This document shows, piece by piece, positions 1,067-21,254 of a stretch of 64,000 nt of DNA. The stretch's first letter is position 1. Each line of letters begins with the position of its first letter. The notes beneath the pieces are model-generated. The model was not told the DNA's origin and searched no databases. It saw only the letters and a program-made list of their open reading frames with translations. This DNA is from an uncultured Sphingorhabdus sp. (GTDB lineage: Bacteria > Pseudomonadota > Alphaproteobacteria > Sphingomonadales > Sphingomonadaceae): positions 558,001 to 622,000 of the forward strand of contig CANMXN010000001.1 of the NCBI GenBank assembly GCA_947501885.1, written 5' to 3'. The position numbers and the translations under genes are program-made.

Positions 1067-1773
1067 TTCTTAGCTCCTTTTTTCGGAGCAGCTTTCTTAG
1101 CTGGTTTTTTGGCAGCCTTTTTAGCAGGCGCTTTTTTGGGCTTTTCTTCTGCTTTTGGAGCATCAGGAGCTTTTTCATCGCCAGGAAGAATATAATCCGC
1201 CCCTTCCCAAGGCGACATAAAGTCAAAACTGCGAAAATCTTGCGCCAATTTCACAGGCTCATAGACAACGCGCTTTGCTTCTTCGCTATAGCGCATCTCC
1301 ACATATCCCGTAAGCGGGAAGTCTTTGCGGAATGGATGCCCTTTAAAACCATAATCGGTCAATATGCGGCGTAAATCAGGGTGGCCTGAAAATAACACAC
1401 CATAAAGGTCAAACACTTCACGCTCTAACCAATCAGCCACAGGCCAAACGCCCGTTACCGTCGGAACAGGCGTGTCTTCATCGGTGGAAGTTTTTACTCT
1501 AATACGGTGATTTTTGGTCAAACTCAGCAGATGGTAACAAATCTCAAATCGTAATGCGCGCTCGGGATAATCGACGCCAGCAATTTCTACCAATTGTTGA
1601 TATTCATGCTCATCACGAAGCATCTTCAAAGCATTGGCAATGGACTCGCGCTTAACCATGAATGAAATCTCGTCATTGGCCTCGACAGCATCCAGACAAT
1701 CTTTGCCCAGCGCCTTTTTGAGCGTATTTATCGCGCCTTTAGGATTATCAACTTTTGGTGCATTATGGGTCAT
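1063..1773 (-). CDS. nuoC: NADH-quinone oxidoreductase subunit C with Lys/Ala/Pro-rich C-terminal tail
   Basis: ORF 236 aa; 30-kDa subunit signature ([53 protein letters not shown]); nuo synteny. Confidence 0.96.
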
Positions 1774-1782
1774 TATGGCTCC

Positions 1783-2346
1783 TTAACGCTCTATTGTACC
1801 AATGCGGCGGATTTTGCGCTGCAATTGCATCACGCCATATAACAACGCCTCAGCAGTCGGCGGACATCCTGGCACATATATATCAACAGGAACGATACGA
1901 TCACAACCGCGCACAACGCTATAGCTATAATGGTAATAACCACCGCCATTGGCGCAGCTCCCCATTGATATAACATATTTAGGTTCTGACATTTGGTCAT
2001 AGACTTTACGCAGAGCAGGCGCCATTTTATTACACAATGTTCCTGCCACAATCATGACATCGCTCTGACGCGGGGATGCGCGCGGAACAACACCAAAGCG
2101 CTCCATATCATAGCGCGGCATATTCACGTGGATCATCTCCACTGCGCAGCATGCCAAACCAAAGGTCATCCACCATAATGAGCCTGTACGGGCCCATTGA
2201 AACAGGTCTTCGGTTGAAGTGACCAAAAAACCTTTATCATTCACTTCATTGGATAGATCATTGAAAAAATTTTGTTCGGGCGGTGTATCGCCAGATGCCA
2301 GAAGGGCCTCAGGTGTTTTCGGCAAATTAGAGGTATCTATTCCCAT
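1783..2346 (-). CDS. nuoB: NADH-quinone oxidoreductase subunit B
   Basis: [18 protein letters not shown] and [43 protein letters not shown] 4Fe-4S signature; start moved to internal Met (MGIDTSN) to reduce overlap with nuoA. Confidence 0.96.
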
Positions 2347-2711
2347 TCTAACGCTCCTACCTTCCACGCATAAATGAAACCAACAATCAATTCGAACAAA
2401 AATAACATCATAGTGCCCCAGCCCACCCAGCCAATTTCGCTAAGGCTAACCGCCCATGGAAATAGAAAGGCCGCTTCCAAATCAAAAATGATAAAGAGAA
2501 TGGCAACAAGATAAAAACGAATATCAAACTGACTACGCGAATCTTCAAAAGCAGGAAATCCACATTCATATTCTGATAATTTGCTCTCAGTCGGGTTTTC
2601 AGCGCCTGTCAATTTTGCAACGCCCATAGGCAGAAAAACGAAGGCCGATGATAATATCACTGCAATAATTAAGAACAGCAGTATCGGTAGATATTGTGAT
2701 AGGTCGGTCAA
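2337..2711 (-). CDS. nuoA: NADH-quinone oxidoreductase subunit A
   Basis: Three-TM protein with [42 protein letters not shown] motif. Confidence 0.95.
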
Positions 2712-2861
2712 AATATAGACTCATTTTTGCTAAAGTTAGCGCGCTTTTAGGCGCAAGAACAGATCGCTGCAAGGGTGAACCTGTATTTTTCAACAAAATA
2801 ATGACAGCTTTATTGCCCAATAGAAAGCTATGATTTTACGAATAAATTTCTCTCGCTGTTG

Positions 2862-3680
2862 CTAACGCAACGCATTAACAAGCATCTTATGCAAGCGGCT
2901 ATGCAGCATATCGCTAGAAGCTAATAGCTGCGCATCACATATCGCTGGTGATCGTCCCTTAAAATCCGTTACGAAACCGCCAGCCTCGCGCACGAGAAGG
3001 CAACCAGCTGCTATGTCCCAAGGCTGAAGCCCGGCTTCCCAAAACCCATCATAGCGCCCTGCCGCTAGCCAAGCAAGATCCAAAGATGCCGCGCCATAAC
3101 GTCTAATACCCGCAACTTGTGGACCAAGCGCATCAAAAATCTTATTCCATTCCGCAAAATCACCATGCCCTTTATATGGCGTACCTGTTGCAAGCAGTGC
3201 TTCGTTTAAATTTTTGCGCCCCGATACGCGAAGGCGGCGTTCCCCTAGCCAAGCACCGCGTGATTTTTCAGCCCAGAAACTCTCATCGGTAAGCGGTTGA
3301 TACACCAATGCTGTTATAATATCGCCCCAGCCCTTACCATCAAGACGTCTTTCTTGCACTGCAATAGATACGGCAAAATGCGGAATACCATGCAAAAAAT
3401 TGCTCGTCCCATCAAGCGGGTCAATTATGAAGCGCGGTTTATCCTTATCGTTAATAATCTCGCCGCCTTCTTCCATCAGGAAGTTCCAATCGGGCCGCGC
3501 ATGCAAAAGCTCATCATAAATGGTACGTTCGGCTTTCTGATCCGCCTTAGATACAAAGTCCGCTGGCCCTTTTTTCGACACTTGCAGATGCTCAACCTCG
3601 CTAAAATCACGGCGCAACCTAATGGCAGCTTTACGAGCAGCACGTTCCATGACAGAAATTAAACCAGTTTTTGCAGGCAT
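2862..3680 (-). CDS. inositol monophosphatase family protein (SuhB-like)
   Basis: IMPase motifs FIIDPLDGTSNFLHGIPHFAVSIA and WDIAAGCLLVREAGG. Confidence 0.92.
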   Translation of the reverse strand: MPAKTGLISVMERAARKAAIRLRRDFSEVEHLQVSKKGPADFVSKADQKAERTIYDELLHARPDWNFLMEEGGEIINDKDKPRFIIDPLDGTSNFLHGIPHFAVSIAVQERRLDGKGWGDIITALVYQPLTDESFWAEKSRGAWLGERRLRVSGRKNLNEALLATGTPYKGHGDFAEWNKIFDALGPQVAGIRRYGAASLDLAWLAAGRYDGFWEAGLQPWDIAAGCLLVREAGGFVTDFKGRSPAICDAQLLASSDMLHSRLHKMLVNALR

Positions 3681-3722
3681 TTTAATCTCCGCCTTTGAGG
3701 ATATTATACCCTCGGTCCATTA

Positions 3723-4286
3723 TTAATCGGCTTTTCGCACATATTCACGCGCATAAACATCAACGACTATACGCGTACCAGCAGCAATAAAAGGTGGCAC
3801 CATGACGCGCACGCCATTGTCAAGTACAGCAGGCTTATAACTTGAAGAAGCCGTTTGCCCCTTTACCACAGCATCGGCCTCAACAATTTCGGCTTCAATC
3901 TGATCTGGGAGCTGAACAGAGATTGGTTTTTCATCATATAGCTCAAGCGTGACATCCATACCATCGGTCAAAAAGGCGACTTCATCACCAAGCATGTCTG
4001 CATTGAGATTAATCTGTTCATAATTTTCAGTGTCCATGAACACCAAAAAAGAGTCATCTTGGTACAGATATTGAAATTCTTTCGTATCAAGGCGTACTTT
4101 TTCGACCGTATCAGCGCTGCGAAAACGCACATTGGTTTTGCGGCCATCGACAAGGTTTTTCATCTCAACTTGCATATAAGCGCCGCCTTTACCAGGCTGC
4201 GTATGCTGAATCTTGGCTACTTTCCAGAGACCCTTTTCATATTCCAAAATATTGCCTGGACGGATATCGACACCGCTGATTTTCAT
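3723..4286 (-). CDS. efp: elongation factor P
   Basis: 187 aa; [47 protein letters not shown]. Confidence 0.97.
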
Positions 4287-4367
4287 AATCTGTCTCGCTT
4301 ATAGAATGTCATTATTTTTGCTGTTAATGCGCCGTGTAACGCCAAGCCTATTATGAAGCAAGCCTAT

Positions 4368-4997
4368 CTATGCAGATAAGAGCGTATCAAACGCCTTTAC
4401 AGCATGATCTGGGCCTATTGGATCATTCCAAACGCCTCCGCTTACGGCGATAAAGTCTGCACCCGCATCAATAACCAGCTTTGCATTATTAGGATTAATA
4501 CCGCCAATAGCAACGCATGGCACTTCCATCACCGTAGACCATTTTTCTAATATCTCTATTTCTGCTTTATGCGATACTGTTTTGGTTTGCGTTGGGAAAA
4601 ACGCACCAAAAGCGACATAATCTGCGCCATCTTCACCTGCTTCCATTGCCAAATGGCGGCTATCATGACAGGTAATGCCGATTTGCATAGCATCACCCAA
4701 TATTGCTCGCGCTTCGGATAAGGACATATCTCCTTGCCCCAAATGCACGCCATCGGCCTTAAGACGTTTGGCAAGAGCAACATCATCATTGACGATAAAA
4801 GCCGTATCATATTGCGCGCAAATTTCTTGGAGTGGCTTTGCTAGCTCTGCCGCTTTATGCTGGTCAATTCCTTTCACACGAAATTGAAAGGCCGCGACAT
4901 AAGCTGCATCAAGCGCCTTTTCCAAGTGACTTGGGAAATCTCCGCTAGTCTCCAACGGAGATATCAGATATAATTCGCATGGCCTTAATTCACTCAT
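4368..4997 (-). CDS. thiE: thiamine phosphate synthase
   Basis: LYLISP..., DGVHLGQGDMS, IGITCHDSRH, DYVAFGAFFPTQTK, CVAIGGINPNN motifs; start placed at internal Met (MSELRPCELYLISP). Confidence 0.9.
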   Translation of the reverse strand: MSELRPCELYLISPLETSGDFPSHLEKALDAAYVAAFQFRVKGIDQHKAAELAKPLQEICAQYDTAFIVNDDVALAKRLKADGVHLGQGDMSLSEARAILGDAMQIGITCHDSRHLAMEAGEDGADYVAFGAFFPTQTKTVSHKAEIEILEKWSTVMEVPCVAIGGINPNNAKLVIDAGADFIAVSGGVWNDPIGPDHAVKAFDTLLSA

Positions 4998-5016
4998 GCG
5001 ATGCGCATTAGAGACT

Positions 5017-5904
5017 TTATGTGCAAGATGCACTATAAATTTGACTGATAGCACTATCTAAAGCGCTATCAAATTGACCATCATCCATATGATTACGCAA
5101 ATCCTGCAACAATGCGCGGGAAAAGCTTGCGATCATACCTTCATTCTTGGTCAATTCTTCGCTGGCCTCATCACGCGAATAACCCCCAGATAAGGCCACA
5201 ACGCGGGCCACTTTGGGATGCGCGATTAACGGCGCATAAAGCCCTGACTTTTCTGGGATAGAGAGCTTCAACATGACCTTACGGTCATCAGCTAAGGTAT
5301 CCAGAGACTTGCTAATCTCAGCCAATGCTATTTCATCGCATTGCGCCCGTTCATCGCTTTTTATGTTAATCTCAGGCTCTAACATCGGCATCAGTCCATG
5401 ATCCAAAATTTGATTACCAACCTCAAATTGCTGCTGCACAATAGCGGCAATACCGCTAGGCGATGCTTTATTGATGACGCTGCGCATCTTGGTACCAAAT
5501 ATACCTTTTGATTTGGCGCGGGCCAAAACAGTATCAAGCTCTGGCATGGCTTTCATCATTTGTACGCCATCTTGTTCATCCTCTAGGCCTTTATCAACCT
5601 TGAGGAAAGGTACAACGCCCCGTTCCCATAATAATGAAGGAACAGGCTTTCCTCCCGCTTCGCCATCCATAGTTTTTTCAAATAATATTGCTCCAATAAC
5701 GCGCTCACCATTAAAACAAGGTGATGTGATAATGCGGCTGCGCATAGCATGAATGAGCGCAAACATCTCATCATCGCCATTATAAGCATTTTCTTCAATA
5801 CCATAGCCTTTAAGGGCTTTTGGTGTCGAACCACCACTCTGATCGAGGGCTGCAATAAAACCTTTATCAGTTTCAATTTGTTCCATCATTTTTGGATCAT
5901 GCAT
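5017..5904 (-). CDS. fda: fructose-bisphosphate aldolase class I
   Basis: GFIAALDQSGGSTPKALKGYG and KLSIPEKSGLYAPL motifs; beside glycolytic pgk/gap/tkt cluster. Confidence 0.9.
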   Translation of the reverse strand: MHDPKMMEQIETDKGFIAALDQSGGSTPKALKGYGIEENAYNGDDEMFALIHAMRSRIITSPCFNGERVIGAILFEKTMDGEAGGKPVPSLLWERGVVPFLKVDKGLEDEQDGVQMMKAMPELDTVLARAKSKGIFGTKMRSVINKASPSGIAAIVQQQFEVGNQILDHGLMPMLEPEINIKSDERAQCDEIALAEISKSLDTLADDRKVMLKLSIPEKSGLYAPLIAHPKVARVVALSGGYSRDEASEELTKNEGMIASFSRALLQDLRNHMDDGQFDSALDSAISQIYSASCT

Positions 5905-6009
5905 GAAGAATATCCTATTTCATAAGCTTGAGTTTTAATCTATATTGAGAATGTCTCTAACGGTAAGATTAGAGCTTTTCAACATAAGCGAAAGATATAA
6001 ATTTACTGT

Positions 6010-6024
6010 TAAGACAATGTCTTA
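6010..6024. promoter_or_regulatory. perfect 15-bp inverted repeat TAAGACA-A-TGTCTTA upstream of fructose-bisphosphate aldolase (candidate operator)
   Basis: Seen directly; arms TAAGACA/TGTCTTA, about 105 bp upstream of the aldolase start in an AT-rich intergenic region. Confidence 0.45.
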
Positions 6025-6204
6025 CGTTGTCATTCAAACAATATCACACATATTCAAATGCAAAGCATCCGTTGTAATTTCTATACTTTCTACCAAAATT
6101 ATAACGGATAAGTTGCGGTATAATTAAATTATATTCTCTTCATATATTGATAATAGTTCAAAATATATAATTATGTGAATAAAAGCTATTGAGGAATACA
6201 CCCA

Positions 6205-6702
6205 TCAATTATCAATCAATATATTGATATCAGGCCAAATAATACGCTCATTCGGAATCATATTTCCATAAATATCTTTATCATCAATGCCATTTGGCAC
6301 ACCACCTAATGCCAAATAAAATTTACGCGCCCGTTCATTGCCAACAACTACATCCAAACATGCACTAATTCTGCCATTCGCTTTCGCCTGTTTAGCAGCC
6401 GCAATCAATAGTTTTCGTCCAATCCCTCTGGATTGATAATCACCACGCACATGCAGATTGTCAATATAGACAGTTTCATCATCCCAAATAGCGACAAACC
6501 CCACCAAAGATTCATCCTCAGCAACAAGAACAATATCTTTTGTTCTTATTTTTGCTGTTGCCCATCGTTTTAGCATTAGGTCGCAAATCTGCGTATCTAA
6601 AAATTCATCACTCAGAACATCACGGTAATTTTCCTGCCAACTGCGCGCATGGATGTCTGCAATAATTTGCCTATCTTTGTCCAAGATAGGTCTAATATTC
6701 AT
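6205..6702 (-). CDS. GNAT family N-acetyltransferase
   Basis: [20 protein letters not shown]..., [19 protein letters not shown] acetyl-CoA binding motif; 4-bp overlap with pgk. Confidence 0.9.
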
Positions 6703-7895
6703 AGCTCTAAAGCTTTAACGCCCGGTAGATCTTTGCCTTCCATCCACTCCAAAAATGCGCCGCCTGCTGTCGAAACAAAGGTGAAATCATCCTTCACACC
6801 CGCATGAGCAAGCGCTGCTACCGTGTCACCACCTCCAGCAACGGACAATAATGACCCTTCTTTGGTAAGAGCAGCGGCTGTGCGTGCCAATGATACAGTG
6901 GCCATATCAAATGGTTCCGTCTCAAACGCGCCCATTGGGCCATTCCAGACCAATGTTTTACAAACCTTCAGAACATCTGCGAGTGCTTCAACCGCCGCAG
7001 GGCCGACATCCAAAATCATTTCATCTGCATCAACCTCATGAACATTGACAGTTCTAACATGAGGATTGGCTTTAAATTCTTTTGAAACAACAACGTCATA
7101 GGGCAAATGAACCGTGCAATTGGCCGCATCAGCCGCATCTAATATCTCCTCGGCAGTTCCTGTTAAATCATGCTCGCATAGCGACTTACCAACATCAACG
7201 CCGCGCGCTGCCAAAAATGTATTGGCCATACCGCCGCCAATGATCAGATGGTCAACCTTCGTCACGAGATGCTGCAAAACATCAAGCTTTGATGAAACTT
7301 TTGCACCGCCAACAACGGCCGCCACAGGATGCTCTGGCGCACCCAACGCAATATTCAGCGCTTTTAATTCCGCTTCCATTGAACGGCCAGCATAGCTTGG
7401 CAACAAATGGGCCAATCCTTCGGTGGTGACATGTGCACGGTGCGCCGCCGAGAAAGCGTCATTAACGTAAAAATCGCCATTGGCCGCAACCGCCAGAGCA
7501 AGATCAGCATCATTACTCTCTTCACCAGCATTAAAGCGGCTATTTTCTAGCACGGCAACATCGCCATCCGCCAATATAGCAACCGATTGCTCCACCACTG
7601 GGCCAGCCATTTCAGCGACAAACATCACTTCTTTGTTCAAAACCTCAGAGAGTTTTTCCACAATCATTGATAAAGATAATTCGCTATGCTTGGAACCTTT
7701 GGGGCGGCCAAAATGCGCGAGCAATAGCACTTTTGCGCCTTTGCTCGTTAATTCGCTTACCGTCGGAATAATAGCTTTTAACCGCGTAGAATCGCTCACA
7801 CGGCCATCAGCCATAGGAACATTCAGATCAACACGCACCAAGGCACGTTTACCCTTTACATCGCCCAAATCATCTAATGTTTTGAAATTGGCCAT
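6699..7895 (-). CDS. pgk: phosphoglycerate kinase
   Basis: [64 protein letters not shown]. Confidence 0.98.
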
Positions 7896-7944
7896 GACAA
7901 TGTCCTAATATTTTAAAGGTAATAGAATGAATGTTTGATAGGGT

Positions 7945-8949
7945 TTACAGCAAAGACGCCATCACTTTGGCGGTATCAATCATGCGGTTTGAGAAACCCC
8001 ATTCATTATCATACCAGCTAACCACGCGGGCCAATTTGCCATCCATCACGCTGGTTTCAAGACTATCGATTGAAGAACTAGCGGCTTGATGATTAAAATC
8101 GCTAGAAACAAGCGGCTTATCTTCATAGACCATAACGCCTTTCATCGGACCTTCTGCTGCTGCTTTTAGTGCTGCATTAATTTCTTCAGCATTAGTATCG
8201 CGCGATGGCACGAAAGTAAGATCAACCAAGCTCACATTGGGCGTTGGTACACGAATTGAACTACCATCTAATTTGCCATTAAGCTCTGGCAGTACAAGAC
8301 CAACAGCACGCGCAGCACCCGTTGTGGTTGGAATCATATTGACCGCACCTGCGCGTGCACGGCGCATATCGCTGTGCATTTGATCAAGCATACGTTGATC
8401 ATTGGTATAGCTGTGGATAGTTGTCATGAAACCGCGCTCAATACCAACCAATTCATTACAGACTTTAGCAACGGGTGCTAAGCAATTGGTGGTGCAGCTT
8501 GCGTTGGATACGATCAAATCATCTGCTGTTAGCGTATCATGATTTACGCCATAAACGATAGTTTTCAAATCACCCTTTGCTGGTGCTGAGATTAAGACAC
8601 GTTTTGCTCCCGCATCAATATGCGGCTGTGATGCTTCGACAGATTGGAAAAACCCCGTACATTCCAAAACAATATCAATGCCCATTTCGCCATGTGGTAG
8701 ATTAGCAGGATCACGCTCAGAAGTGACCGCAATTTTCTTGCCGTTGACAACCATATCATTGCCATCAGTGCTAACATCACCGTCAAAACGCCCGTGCGTG
8801 CTGTCATATTTAAACAAAAGAGCATTGGCTGCTGTATCAGCAAGGTCATTAATAGCGACCAACTCGAAATCATCATCTTTACGCTCTAATATAGCGCGAG
8901 CTACTAAGCGGCCGATACGACCAAAACCATTAATTGCAACTTTTGTCAT
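7945..8949 (-). CDS. gap: type I glyceraldehyde-3-phosphate dehydrogenase
   Basis: KVAINGFGRIGRLVARA; SNASCTTNCLAPVAKV; WYDNEWGFSNRMIDT. Confidence 0.98.
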   Translation of the reverse strand: MTKVAINGFGRIGRLVARAILERKDDDFELVAINDLADTAANALLFKYDSTHGRFDGDVSTDGNDMVVNGKKIAVTSERDPANLPHGEMGIDIVLECTGFFQSVEASQPHIDAGAKRVLISAPAKGDLKTIVYGVNHDTLTADDLIVSNASCTTNCLAPVAKVCNELVGIERGFMTTIHSYTNDQRMLDQMHSDMRRARAGAVNMIPTTTGAARAVGLVLPELNGKLDGSSIRVPTPNVSLVDLTFVPSRDTNAEEINAALKAAAEGPMKGVMVYEDKPLVSSDFNHQAASSSIDSLETSVMDGKLARVVSWYDNEWGFSNRMIDTAKVMASLL

Positions 8950-9022
8950 GTGATATCTCCTTCACAGTCTATGACGACTCAATGATTGATAATTTTCATT
9001 CACCTATAATAGGAATTACCCA

Positions 9023-10987
9023 TTACGCTAGGGAATCAATTATTTTTGGTGTTATTTTATCAGCGGTTAGTCCAAAATGGTCGAATAAATCTGCTATTGG
9101 TGCTGATGCCCCAAAACTATCAATGCCAAAACGCAAACCTTTGCGTCCTGTATAACGTTCCCAGCCAATCGTTGTTCCTGCTTCGATGGATACAATCAAA
9201 GCATCATCAGCTAATATATCATTTTGATAATCATCGTCTTGCGCATCAAACAACTCGGTTGATGGCATAGAAATAACGTCAACACCAATATCTCTCTGCT
9301 CAAGCGCATTCGCAACATCAAGCGCGATAGAAACTTCACTACCTGTCGCAAGTATCACGACTTTGCGATCTGCTTTAGCAGCTTGGAAACGATAGGCCCC
9401 TCTTGCACAATGATTTTCTGATACATCGCTACGTAAAGTCGGCAAACCTTGTCTTGTAAGTGAAATCACCGATGGTGTATCTTCACTGGCCAAAGCAAGA
9501 GCCCAACATTCGGCCGTTTCAATAGCATCCGCAGGGCGGAACACATTAAGGTTGGGCATAACGCGAAGGCTTTGCAGATGCTCAATAGGTTGGTGCGTCG
9601 GGCCATCTTCACCCAGACCAATACTATCATGCGTCATCACATAGATAACGCGCTGACGCTGTAATGCTGACAGACGAATGGCAGCACGGCAATAATCCGC
9701 AAACACCAAAAATGTTCCTGAATAAGGAATGATACCGCCATGCAGGGCCATACCATTCATGGCTGCCGCCATACCAAATTCTCTAATACCATAATTGATA
9801 TAACGGCCATTATATGTTTCGCTAGTAAGCGGCTTTGTTGAAGGAGTTTTTGTATTGTTAGATCCTGTTAAATCTGCACTGCCGCCAATCATTTGTGGTA
9901 TTGCTTTAGTAAACACTTCCAGAGCCATTTCAGACGCTTTTCGTGTCGCTACTTTGGGTTTTTCTTGCGCTAATTTTTCAAGATAGGGCTGTAATGTTTC
10001 TGGTTCATTATACTGGGCTTCTAATGATTTCAAAATAGCATCTTTTTTGATATTACTGTTGAATAATGTTTTCCATTTCGCATGCAGTTTTTTACCGCTT
10101 TTACCAAAGTCAAGCCATGCTTGTTTAATGTCATTGGGAATAACGAAAGGCTCATGCTCCCAACCCAATTCTCTGCGGGTTGCTTTTACCTCATCATCAC
10201 CAAGTGCCGCTCCATGAACGCCAGAGGTCCCTTGTTTGTTAGGGGCGCCAAAACCAATGACCGTTTTACACGCTATTAAGCTAGGCCTAGGGTCATTATT
10301 GGCTTCTTCAAGTGCGCGGCGAATATCAGCAAAATCATGGCCATCACAGCTCACCACATGCCAGCCCGTTGCAACATAACGTGCCTTTACATCCTCACTC
10401 GTAGATAGGTCCGTTGGACCATCAATCGTAATGCGATTATCATCCCAAAGCACATTTAGACGGCCAAGCTTTAAATGACCAGCCAAACCAATGGCTTCGT
10501 GATTAATACCTTCCATGAGACACCCATCGCCAGCAACCACCCACGTTTTATGATTTATAACATCATTACCATGTACTTTGCTCAAATGACGTTCCGCAAT
10601 GGCCATACCAACAGCGGTTGCAAGACCCTGCCCTAGCGGGCCCGTTGTCGTTTCGATACCTTCAAGTTCAAAATTTTCTGGATGGCCTGCACAAGGGCTG
10701 TGCAATTTCCGAAAATTCTTAATATCCTCAATTGTAGGATGCGCATAACCCGTCAAATGCAGTAAAGCATAAGCTAGCATAGACCCATGACCAGCGGAAA
10801 GCACAAATCTATCACGATCCAGCCATTTGGGCGCGTCAGGGTCAAATTTCATGAAATCTTTAAATAATATGGTTGCAACATCGGCCATACCCATAGGCAT
10901 ACCTGGATGCCCTGAATTTGCGGCTTGCACCGCATCCATAGACAAAGCCCTAATAGCATTCGCCATTTGCCGTTCACTGACTTTCAT
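9023..10987 (-). CDS. tkt: transketolase
   Basis: 654 aa; NSGHPGMPMGMADVATILF; GPLGQGLATAVGMAIAE; GDGCLMEGINHEA; GEDGPTHQPIEHLQSLR. Confidence 0.98.
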   Translation of the reverse strand: MKVSERQMANAIRALSMDAVQAANSGHPGMPMGMADVATILFKDFMKFDPDAPKWLDRDRFVLSAGHGSMLAYALLHLTGYAHPTIEDIKNFRKLHSPCAGHPENFELEGIETTTGPLGQGLATAVGMAIAERHLSKVHGNDVINHKTWVVAGDGCLMEGINHEAIGLAGHLKLGRLNVLWDDNRITIDGPTDLSTSEDVKARYVATGWHVVSCDGHDFADIRRALEEANNDPRPSLIACKTVIGFGAPNKQGTSGVHGAALGDDEVKATRRELGWEHEPFVIPNDIKQAWLDFGKSGKKLHAKWKTLFNSNIKKDAILKSLEAQYNEPETLQPYLEKLAQEKPKVATRKASEMALEVFTKAIPQMIGGSADLTGSNNTKTPSTKPLTSETYNGRYINYGIREFGMAAAMNGMALHGGIIPYSGTFLVFADYCRAAIRLSALQRQRVIYVMTHDSIGLGEDGPTHQPIEHLQSLRVMPNLNVFRPADAIETAECWALALASEDTPSVISLTRQGLPTLRSDVSENHCARGAYRFQAAKADRKVVILATGSEVSIALDVANALEQRDIGVDVISMPSTELFDAQDDDYQNDILADDALIVSIEAGTTIGWERYTGRKGLRFGIDSFGASAPIADLFDHFGLTADKITPKIIDSLA

Positions 10988-11268: not shown

Positions 11269-11499
11269 ATGAGTGACGAACGATTAATAATGGCCATTGG
11301 AAGATTAGAGCGAGCTTTATCACGCGCTGAAACATCTGGTGATCAACTTATAACTAAGATTCAATCTACTAACAACAGCATGAATAGCGACACAGCTGCC
11401 TATCAAAAACTTAAGCAAGAGCATAAAGAACTCAAACAACAAGCAAGTGCATCATTAGCGGCAATCAACAATATATTAGAACAAAAGGTAGATTCATAA
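11269..11499 (+). CDS. short coiled-coil protein immediately upstream of zapA (ZauP-like position)
   Basis: 76 aa, predicted helical/coiled-coil; stop overlaps the zapA start. Confidence 0.7.
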   Translation: MSDERLIMAIGRLERALSRAETSGDQLITKIQSTNNSMNSDTAAYQKLKQEHKELKQQASASLAAINNILEQKVDS

Positions 11500-11846
11500 T
11501 GGCGGAAGTTAGGCTGAATATTGCCAATCGAGAGTATATAGTGACCTGCAGAGATGGAGAGGAACAACGTCTGTTACAGCTTGGCGAAATGGTTGATCAA
11601 AAAGCTCAAGAAGCAGGCGGAAACGCGGCTGGGTTAAACGAGAGCCGTTTGCTCTTATTCGCAGCCTTATTACTCGCCGATGAAGCAAGCTCTGCAACAG
11701 AGAAAACCAGCAAATCTGAGACATCAAAACAAGAAAGTTACACTGACAACAATGATATTGAGATAGATAAAGCTGCTACCACTATTGAAAAACTGGCTGA
11801 TCGCGTAGAAAGTTTTGCACAAAGCCTTGAGCAATATCAAAACTAA
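11499..11846 (+). CDS. zapA: cell division protein ZapA
   Basis: AEVRLNIANREYIVTCRDGEEQRLLQLGEMVDQKAQE...LLLFAALLLADE; zapA-6S-fau synteny. Confidence 0.92.
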   Translation: MAEVRLNIANREYIVTCRDGEEQRLLQLGEMVDQKAQEAGGNAAGLNESRLLLFAALLLADEASSATEKTSKSETSKQESYTDNNDIEIDKAATTIEKLADRVESFAQSLEQYQN

Positions 11847-11849
11847 CCC

Positions 11850-12038
11850 TACATAAGTTCTGCGTCGATACTGCATGGCACGAACTGCTACGAATATCCC
11901 TGAGGCGATGTAATCCAAAAGGGAGCTGTCCCTAGTTGGGCCCTGGCCTGGCATATATGGCACCCACCTGACGTATTTGGCGTCAGAGGATTTTCCGGAA
12001 ACCGACCTATTGTGGTTTCGGCGCACCCTATTTTTACA
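11850..12038 (+). ncRNA. ssrS: 6S RNA
   Basis: Structured, relatively GC-rich intergenic segment exactly between zapA and 5-FCL (conserved 6S location); 3' end GGTTTCGGCGCACCC; boundaries approximate. Confidence 0.8.
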
Positions 12039-12055
12039 ATTTCGAATGGAATAAT

Positions 12056-12616
12056 ATGCCTATAAAACAGAGCTTAAGGGCCGAATATAGAGCCAAGCGC
12101 TCTACGCTTGTTTCGCAAACCAATCCGGCCATATTATCGCTCTCTTTCTCAGCATTAACAACGCCATTTCGTTCCATCTTAGAAACTGCTTCATGCCTTG
12201 CCATATATGCTCCAATCGGCAGCGAAGCTAATCCTCTAAAATTAGCTGAAAAAGCACGTGAAATGGGTATTAAACTATGCCTGCCACATGTTCAGAATAA
12301 AATAAGCCCAATGCAATTTATTGAATGGAAGCAAGATGATATACTGGTTGAAGGACCATTAGGTATCAAACAAGCTTCGCTTGATAATGCGCCCTGCACA
12401 CCCGATGTTATATTAGCGCCTATGGTGGCTTTTGATCGTGATATGACACGCCTCGGCCAAGGTGCTGGCCATTATGATCGTGCGCTTAGCCTATTGGAAG
12501 ACGCAATTATCATTGGTATTGCTTGGTCCGTTCAAGAGGCTGATAGACTACCCAAAGACCCATGGGATATCCCAATGGATGCCATTTTAACCGAGAAAGA
12601 ATGGATTACATTATGA
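12056..12616 (+). CDS. 5-formyltetrahydrofolate cyclo-ligase
   Basis: LRAEYRAKRSTL...; APMVAFDRDMTRLGQGAGHYDRAL motif; downstream of 6S RNA. Confidence 0.93.
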   Translation: MPIKQSLRAEYRAKRSTLVSQTNPAILSLSFSALTTPFRSILETASCLAIYAPIGSEANPLKLAEKAREMGIKLCLPHVQNKISPMQFIEWKQDDILVEGPLGIKQASLDNAPCTPDVILAPMVAFDRDMTRLGQGAGHYDRALSLLEDAIIIGIAWSVQEADRLPKDPWDIPMDAILTEKEWITL

Positions 12617-12834
12617 CCCCTACATGGCGTAAACCAGTCGGTATATTATTGATGTTACTATATATTTTAATATGGGTTGTGATTATTGCTAGCCTATCTC
12701 CTTGGATAGAAGGACTGCATATTGTGGTGCAAACATTATTCTATGTTTTCTGCGGTATCATCTGGATATTCCCACTTAAACCAGCCTTATTCTGGATGGA
12801 GCATGGAAAATGGCCATCGAAACAAGGTAAATAA
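12613..12834 (+). CDS. DUF2842-type small membrane protein
   Basis: TWRKPVGILLMLLYILIWVVIIASLSPWIEGLHIVVQTLFYVFCGIIWIFPLKPALFWMEHG; 4-bp ATGA overlap with the preceding gene. Confidence 0.8.
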   Translation: MTPTWRKPVGILLMLLYILIWVVIIASLSPWIEGLHIVVQTLFYVFCGIIWIFPLKPALFWMEHGKWPSKQGK

Positions 12835-12877
12835 TATAAAATTCTGTCGCAAAAAAATGACATAATGTCGAAACAAA

Positions 12878-12913
12878 ATCATCTTTTGTCGCATTATCAT
12901 CTTTTGTCGCATT
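12878..12913. repeat. two perfect tandem copies of ATCATCTTTTGTCGCATT (18 bp)
   Basis: Direct reading: 12878-12895 and 12896-12913; further TGTCGCAAA/TGTCGAAA fragments just upstream. Confidence 0.9.
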
Positions 12914-12980
12914 TAAGCGCACTAACTCCAAATTATATATCTTTATACTATGTTGAATCGCATTCAATCAATTCATCATA

Positions 12981-13005
12981 AAAAAAGCCCGATAAATTAT
13001 CGAGC
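12981..13005 (-). terminator. intrinsic terminator downstream of tRNA-Asp
   Basis: On the minus strand GCTCGATAATTTATCGGGC followed by TTTTTTT. Confidence 0.75.
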
Positions 13006-13040
13006 TATCATTCACTATGAACCGCCATTTCAAGAGAAAA

Positions 13041-13117
<77 letters not shown>

Positions 13118-13427: not shown

Positions 13428-14465
13428 ATGAAAAACTATGAAAACATTAACAATACCATAAACTATTCTCCATCACTGCACAAAACTATGCAAAAATTAT
13501 CTGCTGCTTTGCTATTTGGCAGTGCATGCACCGCTTTATCAGTAGCACAAGCACAAGCCGCAGGCACTGTTGCAGGAACTGATATTTCAAACACAGCAGA
13601 AGCCAGTTTTCAAGTCCCTGGTGGTTCGACTGTAACCATACCATCCAATACAGTCGTTATTACAGTTGATGAACTTCTTGATGTTACTGTTACGAGCAGC
13701 GATCCAGGTGATATTTCAACTTCTCCTGGTGCAACTGATCAAGTTTTGACATTTCAAATAACCAATACAGGTAACGGTCAAGAAGCATTTCGTTTAACTG
13801 CAGACACTGCTGTGGGTGGTGATGACTTTGATCCGACCTTACAACAGATAGTAATCGATAGTGATGGTAACGGTTTATATGATCCAGGTATTGATACCGT
13901 TTATGTAGCAGGAAGCAATGACCCAGACTTAGCTCCAGATGAAAGCATAAGCATATTTGTTATTACTACTATTCCAGCAGACCGTGTTGATACTGATCGC
14001 GCAGAAGTTTCTCTACTTGCAGAAGCCAATACTGGGACAGGCGCACCTGGCACATCATTCGATGGCTTAGGACAAGGCGGCGGTGATGCTGTTGTCGGCA
14101 CTACTGGAGCCGATGATGATGACAGTGGTTTCCTTGCCGTTCAACAAGCATTAGTAACATTGGTAAAATCAGCAACCGTGCTTGATCCTTTTGGCGGCGA
14201 CCAAGCTGTACCTGGTTCAACAATCACTTATAATTTGGTTGCAACTATTTCAGGTTCAGGCGTTTTAAACAATGTCATCATTTCCGATCCTATACCAACC
14301 TCCACGGTATATATTCCCGCCAGTATAACATTAGAAACAGCAGCATTAACCGATGCTACTGATGCCGATGCTGGCGAATTTGACGGTACAAATATCAACG
14401 TATCTTTAGGCAATGTTCCCGCTGGCGAAACCCGCACAGTAACTTTTGAGGTGACAATAGAATGA
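13428..14465 (+). CDS. secreted DUF11-like repeat protein (surface locus protein 1)
   Basis: Signal peptide after internal Met 13488 (MQKLSAALLFGSACTALSVAQAQA|AGT); DUF11-like VTLVKSATVLDPFGGDQAVPGSTITYNLVATISGSGVLNNVIISDPIP. Confidence 0.75.
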   Translation: MKNYENINNTINYSPSLHKTMQKLSAALLFGSACTALSVAQAQAAGTVAGTDISNTAEASFQVPGGSTVTIPSNTVVITVDELLDVTVTSSDPGDISTSPGATDQVLTFQITNTGNGQEAFRLTADTAVGGDDFDPTLQQIVIDSDGNGLYDPGIDTVYVAGSNDPDLAPDESISIFVITTIPADRVDTDRAEVSLLAEANTGTGAPGTSFDGLGQGGGDAVVGTTGADDDDSGFLAVQQALVTLVKSATVLDPFGGDQAVPGSTITYNLVATISGSGVLNNVIISDPIPTSTVYIPASITLETAALTDATDADAGEFDGTNINVSLGNVPAGETRTVTFEVTIE

Positions 14466-14938
14466 TCACATATATTCCAAAAGCCATCATTATGATGGCC
14501 GCAACTTGCATGACGGGAACGGCTTATGCGGCCACACCCTTACAATTATCAAGCGATGTTTATGTAGAACGCGCAGAAACATCAGCCGATGGGGCAACCA
14601 AATTAATTTTGGAAAAACCCACCACCGTATTACCAGGCGATAACCTAGTATTTGTAGTGAAATATACAAATGCAAGCAATGAGCCTGCATCAAATTTAAT
14701 GGTAACCAATCCCCTTCCCAAGCCCGTGCAATTCAACGGGACCGCTGATGGTAACGAACAAGTGTCCGTCGATGGAGGAAAGACTTGGGGATCATTAAAT
14801 ACATTGCTCGTACAAGAAGCAGACGGTACCAGCCGATCCGCTCAGATGAGCGATGTTACGCATATCCGTTGGGAATTAAGCCAAACATTGGCTGCTGGAT
14901 CTTCGGGTAAATTAATTTTTCGTGGCATCGTCAGATAA
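14462..14938 (+). CDS. secreted DUF11-like protein (surface locus protein 2)
   Basis: N-terminal signal peptide; TTVLPGDNLVFVVKYTNASNEPASNLMVTNPLPKPVQFNG; 4-bp overlap with the preceding gene. Confidence 0.78.
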   Translation: MITYIPKAIIMMAATCMTGTAYAATPLQLSSDVYVERAETSADGATKLILEKPTTVLPGDNLVFVVKYTNASNEPASNLMVTNPLPKPVQFNGTADGNEQVSVDGGKTWGSLNTLLVQEADGTSRSAQMSDVTHIRWELSQTLAAGSSGKLIFRGIVR

Positions 14939-14941
14939 CAC

Positions 14942-14976
14942 AACCGTGAATTTCGCCACGGTTTTTTCTGGCGAAA
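14942..14976 (+). terminator. terminator-like hairpin with an overlapping alternative hairpin (possible attenuator or pseudoknot)
   Basis: Hairpin A AACCGTG(14942-14948)/CACGGTT(14957-14963) followed by TTTT; hairpin B TTTCGCCA(14951-14958)/TGGCGAAA(14969-14976). Confidence 0.6.
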
Positions 14977-15001
14977 AAATTGGACTATAAGGAAGAAAGC
15001 A

Positions 15002-16102
15002 ATGACTAGTAAGCTAAAACTTCTTGTTGGGGCAAGCGCTTTAACTTGCAGCATTATTGGCGGTACCAGTGCCGCTCATGCTGCAGGGACTGATGCTGGC
15101 GTCGACATTAATAATACAGTAACCGTAGATTTCCAAGTTGGTGGCGTGGGGCAAACACAGCAATCAGCAAGTGATACATTCCAAGTTGACCGCGTGATAC
15201 GCTTTACTCTCGTTGAAGATACAACAGGGTCACGCGGAGGTGACTCATCTGCTTCACCAAATGAAGATGATGTTGTCACATTCTTCACACTAACAAATAC
15301 ATCAAATGAAGCCGCTGATTTCGATCTATCAGCAACTGAAACTGCAGATGCTAACAATATTCTTGATGGCACTGGCCTGTTGGTATTTGTTGAAAGCGGT
15401 GCAACACCAGGCTACCAAGCGGCTGAAGACACAGCAACTTTCGTTGATGAATTAGCAGCAGACGATAGCGTCACAATATATGTATTGGGTGACATCGCAG
15501 CAACAGCAGCCAACGGACAGAATGCTGATGTTACTCTAACAGCCACAGCCCATGTCGCAGGCGCTGCTGGTCTTGGTGATCAATATTCAACAAGCGGTAC
15601 GGGCGATGCATTAATATCAGATGATACAGATGTTAACACGGCTGGCGTTGAGACTATCTTTGGCGATACAGGCCGTGACGGCGTTGAATTAGCTGTCGAT
15701 GGTTATGTCATAGAATCTGCTGTATTATCTGTATTTAAAAGCAGCAGCGTAATCAGCGATCCTTTCAGTTCAGCTAATCCTAAAGCTGTTCCTGGCGCTA
15801 TTGTTGAATATTGTATCTCAGTTGCTAATGCTTCAGGAGCAGCTCTAGCCGAAAGCATTTCCCTAGCCGATAATATTGGCGGAATTGCTGGTATTACGTT
15901 TGAGCCAGGTACAATTTTCGTTGATGCAACAGTTGCTAATGCAGGCACGGCTACACAAACCTGTTCAGGTGGTACAGCTGTAACCGATGCAACGGGCGAT
16001 GATGCAGGCGAATTTGCGGGTGGCATCGTAAGTGGTGATCTCTCAAATATTGCTGGAGGCACAACCCTTGGTTTGCGTTTCCGTGTAGAAATTAACCCAT
16101 AA
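15002..16102 (+). CDS. secreted DUF11-like protein (surface locus protein 3)
   Basis: Signal peptide (TSKLKLLVGASALTCSIIGGTSAAHA|AGT); N-terminal module paralogous to protein 1; AVPGAIVEYCISVANASGAALAESISLADNI. Confidence 0.75.
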   Translation: MTSKLKLLVGASALTCSIIGGTSAAHAAGTDAGVDINNTVTVDFQVGGVGQTQQSASDTFQVDRVIRFTLVEDTTGSRGGDSSASPNEDDVVTFFTLTNTSNEAADFDLSATETADANNILDGTGLLVFVESGATPGYQAAEDTATFVDELAADDSVTIYVLGDIAATAANGQNADVTLTATAHVAGAAGLGDQYSTSGTGDALISDDTDVNTAGVETIFGDTGRDGVELAVDGYVIESAVLSVFKSSSVISDPFSSANPKAVPGAIVEYCISVANASGAALAESISLADNIGGIAGITFEPGTIFVDATVANAGTATQTCSGGTAVTDATGDDAGEFAGGIVSGDLSNIAGGTTLGLRFRVEINP

Positions 16103-16112
16103 AAAATAAATA

Positions 16113-16150
16113 GGCGGCGAATGAGGGGTTTCCTTATCGCCGCCATTTTA
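16113..16150 (+). terminator. GC-rich hairpin between surface locus genes 3 and 4
   Basis: GGCGGCGA(16113-16120)/TCGCCGCC(16137-16144), 8-bp perfect stem followed by ATTTTA. Confidence 0.6.
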
Positions 16151-16154
16151 CATT

Positions 16155-19100
16155 ATGAAACATTTAACCAAATTTATTATCAAATATGCAGCAATGCTTG
16201 CGGTAGGGATGTCAGTTCCTGTCGCAAGCAATGTTGCGTTTGCACAATCTGATAATGATATTATTAGCAATACTGCTACGGTTCAATGGAATGATGGTTC
16301 TACAGTTTTAGAAAGACCATCAAATGAAGTGCTTATTACTGTTGATCGCACGATCATTCCTCCAACATTATCCTTATTTCACATTGGTTCAGGCGCGGGA
16401 TCATTAAATACGGCTCTGCCATCTACTATCTGTATGGGCAATAACGGCCCTGTTACAACGCAGCTTAATGGCGCTTTTTCAGATATAGATAGCAATTCTA
16501 CTGAAATTACGCCCGCGACAGCCATAATTGCAGGCGAACCTCTAATTCTATCAGTAGAAGCGGTTGAAAAAAACACCGATTCTAATGCTATTGATAGCTT
16601 TGAATCGACCATAACCACATTGAATGATGACAGAGAGAGCGTTATTTTGCTCGAAACAGGCCCAAATACGGCAGTATTTCGCGCAATCATTAACACAGCA
16701 GCTATCCCGCCATCGCCAGTTCAAGGCGATTGCATATTATCGGTCGTTCCAGGTGACGAATTGTCTTTCACATTAGATGATATCTCCAATGGTGCACCCG
16801 TTGGGACTGCATCAGTTGAAGTTTTGATCGATCCTTTCGGTGTTTCTTTTGACAGTGGTGATGGCGCACCTGTTGATGGCACCATAGTTACCATTGTTGA
16901 TGCCGATACAGGCCTACCAGCGGATGTATTCGGCGATGATGGCGTATCATCCTTTCCAAATACCGTCGTTACAGGTGGAAGCGTTACCGATAGCGGTGGA
17001 ACGGTGTATAATTTCACACCAGGCTTCTATCGCTTCCCCTTTTTGCGGGCTGGACGTTATAGACTAATCGTAACGCCTCCTGATCCTTTTACTTTCGCAT
17101 CCGAGGCAACACCCGAACAATTGGCAAGTTTAACTCGTCCTGATGGTGGCCCATTTACTATTGCGGATGGTTCATTCGGCGGCATCATCATATTGGATGA
17201 CCCATCACCTGTGCGTATAGATATACCCCTTGATCGACCGGGTACACCATTATTGTTGCGCAAAACGGCAAGCCAAAATGTAGCAGAACGCGGCGACGTT
17301 ATTCAATATCGCGTCACAGTCACGAACCAAGATGCTATTCGATCGACCGGCGCCATTACGGCGAGCGATATCTTACCGAGACAGGTAAGGTTACGTGAAA
17401 ACTCAATACGTTATAACGGGAGCATTATAAATGCCAATGTCGCGCCTGATGGTGCGTCTTTTGACGTTTTACTGCCGCCATTGGCTGGTGGTGAAAGCGG
17501 GTTATTAACATATTTAGGTGAAATTCGCCAAGATGCCGACGAAGGTGATGCCATCAACCTTATTACCGCTAATGATAATCGCGGATCGACCAGTAACACT
17601 GCTGATGCCACCATTCGTATTGAAAGCGATGAAATTTCAGAACGTTTCACAATTATTGGTCGTATTACTGACCAAGGATGTAATATTCACCCCAACAAAG
17701 CCAATGGCATTGCTGGCGTTCGTGTCTTGTTACAAGATGGTCGTTTCGCTATTACAGATGAAGATGGCCGCTATCATTTTGAAGGTATTCGTCCAGGTAT
17801 TCAAGTTGTTCAAATCGATCCTTCTTCTTTACCAGCCGATCAACAAGCCATTGATTGTACACAAAATACACGCAGTGCAGGCAGCGCTATTTCACGTTTT
17901 GTGGAGGGCAATGGCGGCGCATTAAAACGGGCCGACTTCCGCACCATTAAAGTCGCACCCCGTGATGTCATTCAAGCCGTTACGAAACCGCTTCCGCAAG
18001 TCATAACCGATCAAGAAGCCGCTGGTGCCAATATTGATTGGCTTAAAGACTTAACCCCTGGTAGTGATTGGGTATTCCCCAATGAAGGCTATAATCCGCG
18101 TGTAAAAGCTATTCGTATTGCGGTAAAACATAGCACTCAACACCGTGTAGAATTAAGCGTGAATGGTAATATTGTTGATCCTCTTAATTTTGATGGTCTC
18201 AAGAAAAGTGCAAACCGTAAAATGGCGGTTAGCATATGGCGCGGCGTAGCTATCGAATCTGGTACCAACAAATTAGTGGCACATATTAAGAATAAAAAAG
18301 GGGAAATCCTTGAGACGTTAGAGCGCAACGTTCATTTCTCAACCTCACCTGTTCGCGCCGAATTTATCAGAGAAAAATCTATATTGGTTGCTGATGGTAT
18401 CACAAGGCCGCGTATTGTTGTGCGTTTAACCGATCGTAATGGCAGGCCAATACAGCATGGTAGTGTTGGCGATTTTGCCGTTCCTGCGCCTTATGAAGCT
18501 GCTGTGGACATTGATGCACAACAAGCCAACCAATTATCAGGCTTAGAGCGTGCAGACCCTGTATGGCGTGTTTATGGCGATACTGGACTTGCTGTGATTG
18601 AACTGGCCCCCACAACGGCTTCTGGAACATTAAGTGTGAACTTTAGTTTCCGTGACGGGGAAGTTATTACCGAACAACGTATTGAAACATGGTTAGATCC
18701 TGGCGAACGTCCATGGACGGTTGTTGGTTTTGCAGCTGGAACAATTGGTTTTAACAAGCTTGAAGAAGGTTTAGAAGAACTTATCGATGATAGTAATACA
18801 TTTAATGTTGATGGTCGTGTTGCCCTCTATGCCAAAGGTCGAGTAAGCGGTAAATGGTTACTGACGCTTGCTTATGATAGCGATAAAGAAGAGGAAGAAA
18901 CACGCTTTGGTGGTGTTATAGATCCACGCAGTTTCTATACAATTTACGCCGACCGTAGCGAACAACGTTTTGATGCTGCATCAGTGCGCAGATTATATCT
19001 CAAATTAGAGCGTCCACAGTTTTTTGCACTCTTTGGCGATTATGAGACGGGCATTAACGAACCAGCGTTGGCACGTTACCAACGTTCTTTCAATGGTGTG

Positions 19101-21254
19101 AAAGCAGAGTTTCGTAATGAGCAAGTTTCAGCCAATGCATTTGCAGCCGATACGCCATTTCGTTTTCGCAGAGATGAAATTCAAGGCAATGGTCTTAGCG
19201 GGCCTTATACTCTAAATGCGCGTGATATTATCGCCAATAGCGAACGGGTTATTATCGAAACACGTGACCGTATTCGGTCTAATGTAATTGTTGGAAGCCG
19301 CCAATTGGTCCGTAATATCGATTATGACATTGATTATTTAAATGGCACATTGATATTCCGTGAACCTATTTTATCACGCGATAGCAGCTTAAACCCGCAA
19401 TTCATCGTTGCTAATTACGAGGTCTTTGGTGTTGGTGAGCGCGTTACCAATGCTGGTGGACGTGTACGTTGGCAGGACAAAGAAGGTAAAATCAGAATTG
19501 CTGCAACCGCCATTCATGATGAAACTGATAGTGATACTACCAATTTAGGCGGTGTTGATATCATCTTTAGACCAGGCACAGGCACGGAAATTCGTGCAGA
19601 GGTCGCTATATCCGATGGTAATGCAAGAGCAGGAAGCAATCAAGAAGATGCAGGTACATCAACAGCGTGGTTGGTAGAGGCTGAACATCACGGTAAATCT
19701 ATTGACGTATTAGCTTATGTGCGAGAACAATCTGCACGCTTTGGCGTGGGCCAACAAAATAATGCAGAGGTCGGATCACGAAAAATTGGAGTCGAGGGGC
19801 GTTTGCGCATCAGTGATGACTTGCAATTGTCTTTGCTTACTTTCCAGGAAAATTTCTTTGAAACAAATGCACGCCGCCGCGCAGCTACTGGCGAGATTGA
19901 ATATCGCACCAACAATACGACCTTACGAGCGGGTATCACACATGCATCGGACCTTTTGTCCGATGGCAAGATCAATCGTTCCACATTGGCAAAAGTTGGC
20001 GCTTCACAATTATTGCTAAATGATAAACTCGAATTAAGCGCACAAAGCGAATTTGCTCTTGGTGGCCAAGATGAGAGCATCGACTTCCCATCGCGCCACC
20101 GCTTTGGTGCCCGTTATGCTATTAGACCAGACATACAAATAGTCGGCGGATATGAAATCATCGATGGTGAAAATATTGATGCGCGCACCGCTCGCATTGG
20201 TTTTGACATTGCGCCTTGGGCTGGCGCTCGGATAACGGCAAGCGGTAATCAGCAAGATATTGGCGAATTTGGGCCACGTACATTTGCGGCTTATGGCTTA
20301 TCACAATCTCTGCGTTTAACCGAGAAATGGTCTTTGGACTTCTCATTAGATGGCAACAGAACGTTAAATGGTTTTGATCAGGCAAATGTCATAAACCCAG
20401 CACAGCCCGTTGCATCGGGTGGTTTCTTGGCCAGTGATGGTGCTATAACAGAAGATTTTATCGCGCTTACAAGCGGCGCTACATATCGCGGTGATAAATG
20501 GAGCTGGGTCAGCCGCGCAGAGTATCGCAATGGCGATACCAATAACCGCTATGGCCTTACAACAGCCCTCTTACGTCAAATTAGCGAGGGCGTGGCACTT
20601 GGTGCAGCCGCACGTTACTTTAATGCCAATCAAGAAGGCGGTGCACAAAGCGAGATATTTGAAGGCGAAATTAGCTGGGCCTACCGTCCATCAAACAGCC
20701 GCTGGTCAATATTAGATAAATTAGAATTTCGTAGCGACTCTATTACGAATGCAATTGCTGGAAACTCTGGTCCCATCGGCGGTCCTGCCCTCACTATCAG
20801 CGGCGATGCCGTATCACGCCGTTTGATCAACAGCATTAGCATCAATTATAGCCCAATAGCTGATAATGATAATGCTGGTGTCGATGAATTTTTTGAACGC
20901 GGTGAATATAGCCTTTTCTGGGGTACGCGTTATGTATTTAATCGCTTCGGTGAAGATGATGTTGAAGGATGGAGCAACATCATTGGTGCTGATGCACGCT
21001 TTGATATCTCAAAAAATATTGATATTGGAGGGCAAGCCACAGTGCGTATTGGTACAGGTGGGCGTAATATTGCCTATTCAGGAGGCCCAGCCATAACGCT
21101 ATCGCCTTTCAAAAATAGCAATATTACATTAGGTTATAATATTATTGGATTCAAGGATCGTGACTTTGAAGAAGCGCGCTATACCCGCAGTGGTCCATTT
21201 TTGACCTTCAAGCTTAAATTTGATCAAAATAGCTTATCGGGTCTTGGCTTCTAA
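16155..21254 (+). CDS. giant multidomain outer-membrane protein: N-terminal module, DUF11, carboxypeptidase-regulatory-like fold, Ig-like region, C-terminal beta-barrel
   Basis: 1699 aa with signal peptide; [28 protein letters not shown] (DUF11); [30 protein letters not shown]; amphipathic strands to C-terminal Phe ([18 protein letters not shown]). Confidence 0.75.
   Translation: [1699 protein letters not shown]

Follow-up and report, generated by a model that had tools for sequence, protein, structure and literature searches.

In the surface fibres closest to the system considered here, a strand from one subunit completes the fold of another. Chaperone-usher pili, of the type 1/P and archaic kinds, are head-to-tail chains in which an N-terminal strand completes the immunoglobulin-like (Ig-like) domain of its neighbour, with an acceptor-only tip and an outer-membrane barrel. 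The archaeal threads of Sulfolobus (Saci_0406) combine donor-strand complementation with an intersubunit isopeptide bond, the N-terminal amine of Asp24 being bonded to Asn57 two subunits away, and a cap protein has been proposed for them (PMC9715654). DUF11, renamed CLIPPER in a 2025 study of fibrillar adhesins, forms an isopeptide bond within one chain: in the structure 9IFR, from Acinetobacter silvestris, Lys715 is joined to Asn806 with Asp748 as the presumed catalyst (PMC12617251). Here we describe a four-gene cassette, A-B-C-G, in a 64,000-nucleotide stretch of DNA from an uncultured Sphingorhabdus sp. (positions 558,001 to 622,000 of contig CANMXN010000001.1; hereafter the window) that resembles each of these systems in part. 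We think it likely that its products complete one another's split DUF11 (CLIPPER) domains by strand complementation and so build a chain or fibre on the cell surface, free of chaperones and probably locked covalently, in which B is the cap, A and C are middle subunits and G is the base.

The four genes lie on the forward strand, as do all features of the cassette given below, in open reading frames at 13428-14465 (protein A, 345 amino acids), 14462-14938 (B, 158 amino acids), 15002-16102 (C, 366 amino acids) and 16155-21254 (G, 1699 amino acids), with four bases shared between the frames of A and B. Each product begins with a signal peptide-like leader, so the co-directional genes and the signal peptides reported in a preliminary description of the locus are both borne out. 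That description also called the small proteins DUF11-like, which is right as to the signal, albeit a weak one: against a Pfam cut-off of 24.6 bits A scored 19.4 and B 24.1, and in a combined Pfam and NCBIfam scan the DUF11 signal of C came from TIGR01451 alone, below cut-off. The large protein G contains a complete internal DUF11 domain (residues 368-486, 17256-17612) that exceeds the Pfam cut-off at 25.3 bits; the carboxypeptidase-regulatory-like and Ig-like domains formerly ascribed to it correspond to sub-threshold matches, SdrD_B/CarboxypepD_reg at residues 515-556 (17697-17822) and Big_1 at about residues 741-771. The Pfam scan matched no pilin family among the cassette proteins.

The preliminary description overlooked two features: DUF11 domains cut at one fixed strand, and an isopeptide triad divided between subunits. 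A, C and the product of a fifth gene, D, which follows G in many genomes and usually overlaps it in the ATGA manner, all stop on a DUF11-type strand and carry no further tail; the cut strand is likewise the last element of at least six secreted proteins encoded at unlinked sites in the window's own genome. When aligned to a DUF11 model of 118 positions that was grown from the loci's internal domains, all 84 protein-terminal domains end at positions 83-90, and most of the 136 internal domains end at 99-118. A second model of 121 positions, built only from large proteins (at least 1500 amino acids) that belong neither to A-D nor to the family G set, places the ends of 104 of 104 protein-terminal domains at positions 90-94, with 213 of 236 internal domains extending to at least position 106.

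The missing last strand lies at the N-terminal end of mature A, C and G, and not at that of B. A hidden Markov model (HMM) of the missing region only (consensus AGVAAGSITNTATATGGDGTPVSNVAT; threshold 3 bits), which we call the donor HMM, reached its threshold on the mature N-termini of 41 of 46 A, 42 of 43 C and 42 of 46 G proteins. It did so on no B protein (0/45), D protein (0/14), tip from another lineage (0/13) or unlinked protein (0/10), and on only 3 of 475 decoys with signal peptides. In the window the donor segments comprise residues 46-81 of A (GTVAGTDISNTAEASF..SNTVVITVD; 13563-13670), 28-64 of C (15083-15193) and 31-66 of G (16245-16352). The acceptors comprise residues 243-345 of A (14154-14462), which stop at the fixed DUF11 position and lack the last strand, and residues 242-366 of C (15725-16099). 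Cut acceptors and separate donors give the subunits ends that, as far as their sequences go, are complementary.

A and C carry both halves, and in principle the N-terminal strand of each could fold into its own C-terminal DUF11 domain to yield closed monomers and no chain, a point that tells against polymerisation. Self-completion within one chain cannot serve G, which is without a C-terminal acceptor, or B, which is without a donor. The donor of G is nevertheless invariant, D and the unlinked tips are, like B, acceptors without donors, and the acceptors (A, B and C) balance the donors (A, C and G) across chains only. We regard closed monomers as very improbable.

The cut in DUF11 falls between the Asp and the Asn of the isopeptide triad, which maps by alignment with 9IFR to the Lys of 'tKta', the Asp of 'ltDtlP' and the Asn of 'tNtA'; the bond in 9IFR links the very halves that this cut separates (PMC12617251). 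Triad residues were counted in family alignments; the HMM alignment loses the Lys to gaps in domains with long inserts. In A (alignment A3, 34 rows) Lys247 (codon at 14166) and Asp287 (14286) are found in 34 of 34 rows and the donor Asn55 (13590) in 33 of 34. The corresponding residues of C are Lys246 (codon at 15737; 37/37), Asp290 (15869; 36/37) and the donor Asn38 (15113; 37/37). The donor Asn39 of G (codon at 16269) is present in all 38 rows of alignment A2, as are Lys370, Asp405 and Asn468 of the internal DUF11 domain. In B the triad is broken: Asn83 replaces the Asp in 27 of 31 rows and the Lys position is a mixture of K and R. By the CLIPPER standard, therefore, the alignments point to a triad that is divided over two chains in A, C and G, intact within G 368-486 and broken in B. 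Lys and Asp are also kept in the class-I unlinked proteins and in most D proteins.

These features suggest how the cassette might operate. The subunits would cross the inner membrane by Sec, as their signal peptides imply, and the donor and acceptor halves would then pair between chains. B, an acceptor only, would cap the chain, a role assigned from its ends; A and C, each with a donor N-terminus and an acceptor C-terminus, would be the middle units; and G, with a donor only, followed by DUF11, SdrD_B and Ig domains and an outer-membrane barrel, would be the base. The Lys and Asp of an acceptor would meet the donor Asn of the next subunit and a Lys-Asn isopeptide bond would form spontaneously in the manner of SpyTag and SpyCatcher, locking the joints among A, C and G. 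The triad of B is broken and its attachment would therefore be non-covalent, which fits less well with a covalently locked fibre. Conservation of the cassette, the fixed cut, the complementary ends and the split triad are read directly from sequence. That the subunits pair between chains, polymerise and become bonded, the order in which they stand, their place at the surface and any passage through the barrel of G are inferred.

Complementation may instead be real and the Lys-Asn bond absent, the residues being kept for packing. B is a member of the cassette despite having no triad, and some DUF11 domains have no isopeptide bond (PMC12617251), as a non-covalent donor-strand chain would allow. 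It accounts less readily for the near-complete retention of the triad in A and C, and of the Asn in G, with the residues split over chains, whereas B has lost the triad; we judge a chain of this kind unlikely.

The cassette is conserved as a unit. A-B-C-G occurs in one order and on one strand in all 46 loci (44 by script; L069 and L080 show C by eye), with A and C in every one. Forty-three of these loci come from genomes of the same family and three from GTDB contigs (L009-L011); L011 and L043 are apparently one place, leaving 45 that are distinct. The C-terminal half of G has matches in 54 of 151 same-family genomes, 48 of which have the full-length type of G as judged from the match list. 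B is present in all 48 of these genomes versus 34 of the 103 others; it is tied to the cassette, though not confined to it. Genomes without G can also encode B-like proteins, and the B family must therefore have some other role. A second B-like protein, of 211 amino acids, is unlinked (L129, 7682-8317). The cassette itself is accessory because a genome of the same genus, G139, lacks both full-length G and B.

Across the phylum, 55 of 349 genomes encode a G-related protein and 39 encode B, and related B/middle/G cassettes occur in other alphaproteobacteria and in gammaproteobacteria, the latter being our assignment for the same-phylum, other-class loci L156-L161. Loci L156, L157, L160 and L161 have B, then two or three middle proteins, then G, and L158 and L159 have A, B, C and G plus D, so that the gammaproteobacterial cassettes show once more the order tip, one to three middle proteins, donor plus barrel. 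The small genes are co-conserved with the giant, as the neighbourhood comparison proposed at the outset was to establish. The dedicated assembly first suggested, in which the small proteins were displayed by, exported through or bound to the large one, gains from this synteny and from the complementary DUF11 halves, and binding to G is the form that we favour. With a signal peptide of its own, Ig-type domains in the N-terminal part and a barrel region in the C-terminal one, G might be imagined as an autotransporter-like surface protein acting alone, with A-C secreted and neighbours through co-regulation only. Given the order seen in 46 of 46 loci, the complementary ends and the recurrence in gammaproteobacteria, we find such a stand-alone adhesin scarcely credible.

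The barrel assigned to the C-terminus of G in the preliminary description is upheld as to its class. AlphaFold2, given an alignment of six rows, modelled residues 840-1699 of G, and a fragment of the model (its residues 344-848, G 1183-1687) forms a regular meander of about 26 strands. The Foldseek matches listed for it were outer-membrane barrels or complexes with one, among them Deinococcus SlpA, BtuB, LptD, the FimD usher and SprA, at low template modelling (TM) scores of 0.14-0.32. The barrel region (residues 850-1687, 18702-21215) also holds a conserved block shared with the split systems described below. This modelling supports an outer-membrane barrel of no particular family. The terminal Phe formerly read as a barrel feature has to be given up: the final Phe is not conserved, and the conserved last strand stops about 10 residues short of the C-terminus. 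The autotransporter barrel PF03797 gave no match to G in Pfam at E values up to 1; the regular strands of the G model number about 26 or more. The SprA model TIGR04189 matched G over 84 residues at E 0.003.

The resemblance to SprA bears on an explanation of another kind, namely that the cut DUF11 serves A, B, C and D as an export tag read by the barrel of G, as C-terminal sorting signals are in type IX secretion, and that the proteins act separately at the surface. The N-terminal donors reduce it to a rival reading. Type IX secretion likewise has a large barrel and many cargoes with a common C-terminal Ig-like domain; the conserved domain terminates many unlinked secreted proteins in the window's own genome, and, of 151 genomes, the 4 with strong class-I terminal domains (E<1e-30) all fall within the 11 that have a split-type barrel (hypergeometric p 1.6e-5, an optimistic value given shared ancestry). 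Against these points, the SprA similarity of G is sub-threshold, its 14.7 bits lying far below the curated cut-off of 200 for the translocon. A sorting signal would leave unexplained why only A, C and G carry the missing strand at their N-termini and why its Asn is kept in 38 of 38 G proteins. We know of no type IX counterpart for N-terminal donors and consider the sorting-signal explanation distinctly unlikely.

In another arrangement, a DUF11 protein and a barrel of about 1200-1400 amino acids are encoded by separate genes, and the tip, middle and base genes are consecutive. Joining the tip and middle halves of this arrangement raised the Pfam DUF11 score from 43.8 to 56.6 bits (+12.8) and joining the middle and base halves raised it from 59.1 to 69.6 bits (+10.5), the match lengthening from 84-85 to 110-112 of 114 positions. 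Middle proteins of other lineages reached the donor HMM threshold in 8 of 15 cases, and at least 0 bits in 13 of 15.

Several observations weigh against assembly of the A-B-C-G products into a locked fibre. The gain in the window is small, with A joined to G scoring 31.1 bits versus 25.5 for A alone (+5.6) and 27.0 for an A plus B control (+1.5); C, whether by itself or joined to G, is not matched by Pfam DUF11, and gains across cassettes are modest. The donor HMM is weak on the outgroup G proteins, with 3 of 10 at 3 bits and 8 of 10 at 0 bits or above. The AlphaFold2 model of A (predicted local distance difference test, pLDDT, 37) is uninformative on the donor and that of the G barrel is of low confidence (mean pLDDT 46). 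Because B is found in genomes that lack full-length G, it does not belong to the cassette alone. A, C and G are mutually related and the genomes share ancestry, making the counts non-independent, and the triad residues are also core fold positions whose conservation alone is no proof of a bond.

Comparison with described systems sets the cassette apart. As in chaperone-usher pili, an incomplete Ig-like domain and a separate donor strand have an analogue in the split DUF11, read from sequence; unlike those pili, the cassette uses another domain family, has a base fused to the barrel and a predicted covalent lock, and lacks PapD and PF00577 proteins. Searches of the window's own genome (a 2.65 Mb assembly) gave no matches to the PapD-like chaperone PF00345 or the usher PF00577, with positive controls in E. 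coli. Sortase-built pili also have covalently linked subunits, but their link is made by an enzyme, from a sorting motif to a pilin Lys. There is no sortase gene in the cassette (the rest of the genome was not searched for one), and A, B and C have no LPXTG-type sorting motif with a C-terminal membrane anchor, ending as they do at the DUF11 strand without a tail. The cassette falls outside chaperone-usher pili, type IX secretion, type V autotransporters and sortase pili when membership of each is tested. DUF11 fibrillar adhesins have the same domain and the same Lys-Asp-Asn triad, but their bond lies within one chain and the halves in the cassette are on different proteins. The archaeal thread is the nearest natural precedent, with an intersubunit bond of different chemistry: the bond predicted for the cassette joins the Lys and Asn of one split domain, and the thread system involves neither an outer membrane nor a barrel. 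Engineered tag/catcher pairs, SpyTag/SpyCatcher among them, are likewise split isopeptide domains that rejoin spontaneously, but SpyTag/SpyCatcher was engineered from CnaB and the cassette is a predicted natural split of the CnaA-like DUF11.

None of the three ingredients, strand complementation, isopeptide chemistry and the outer-membrane barrel, is new by itself, and we found no account that combines them by splitting one domain over gene products; a literature search of open-access papers for DUF11 with a donor strand, Sphingomonas or SprA yielded no prior description. The principle of the system is like that of donor-strand pili and of engineered tag/catcher pairs, with polymerisation and the bond as predictions. 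A bolder proposal, to which we would give slightly less than an even chance, is that the cassette encodes a natural tag/catcher organelle, whose fibres polymerise and seal covalently without sortase or chaperone as isopeptide-forming DUF11 domains divided over adjacent subunits are rejoined, whose base is fused to its own outer-membrane barrel, and whose interchangeable acceptor-only tips are encoded at other sites of the genome. If assembly proceeds as we propose, surface fibres would be built here in a manner not described before, and alpha- and gammaproteobacteria would gain a new fibre class. Such assembly would also give a role to DUF11, a widespread domain of unknown function, account for the many secreted proteins that end in a cut DUF11 domain, and offer naturally evolved tag/catcher pairs.

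D and its unlinked relatives look like alternative tips, being acceptor-only with varied N-terminal parts. The D-like protein of the window's genome (711 amino acids; L097, 4459-6594) is itself unlinked. Secreted proteins of that genome that are cut in DUF11 and unlinked lie at L096 3670-6732 and 14384-15910, L097 4459-6594, L098 4699-6123, L099 5370-6827 and L100 1538-2734, and their N-terminal parts differ (DUF6923, GEVED and Big_9). The same genome (G000) has a second system, of the split arrangement, at the end of contig C3 (L083 2-6147) and that of contig C2 (L100 3-2734), consisting of a DUF11 cargo, a long DUF11-repeat protein cut by the contig ends and a separate barrel gene encoding 1239 amino acids. 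At L085 a DUF11-repeat protein with a terminal OmpA domain (2-6493) stands directly upstream of a barrel gene (6499-10209), which suggests a peptidoglycan-anchored form.

The gap between the B and C genes contains a candidate RNA element. An H-type pseudoknot with stems AACCG/CGGTT and TTTCGCCA/TGGCGAAA (14942-14976) is predicted there in 30 of 46 cassettes versus 6 of 460 shuffles, 29 of 395 other ends of open reading frames and 0 of 45 sites after A. Its stems covary, both altering together between lineages, and no Rfam family fits it. The stem at 14942-14963 was rejected as a terminator, being one half of the pseudoknot, and a scan for sigma-70 promoters gave sites no more frequent than in shuffles. 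A possible role for the pseudoknot is to control how much A-B is made relative to C-G. The cassette itself adjoins (11499-13117) a ZapA-like gene, a 5-formyltetrahydrofolate cyclo-ligase-like gene and a tRNA-Asp; genes similar to the first two are found upstream of several related cassettes too.

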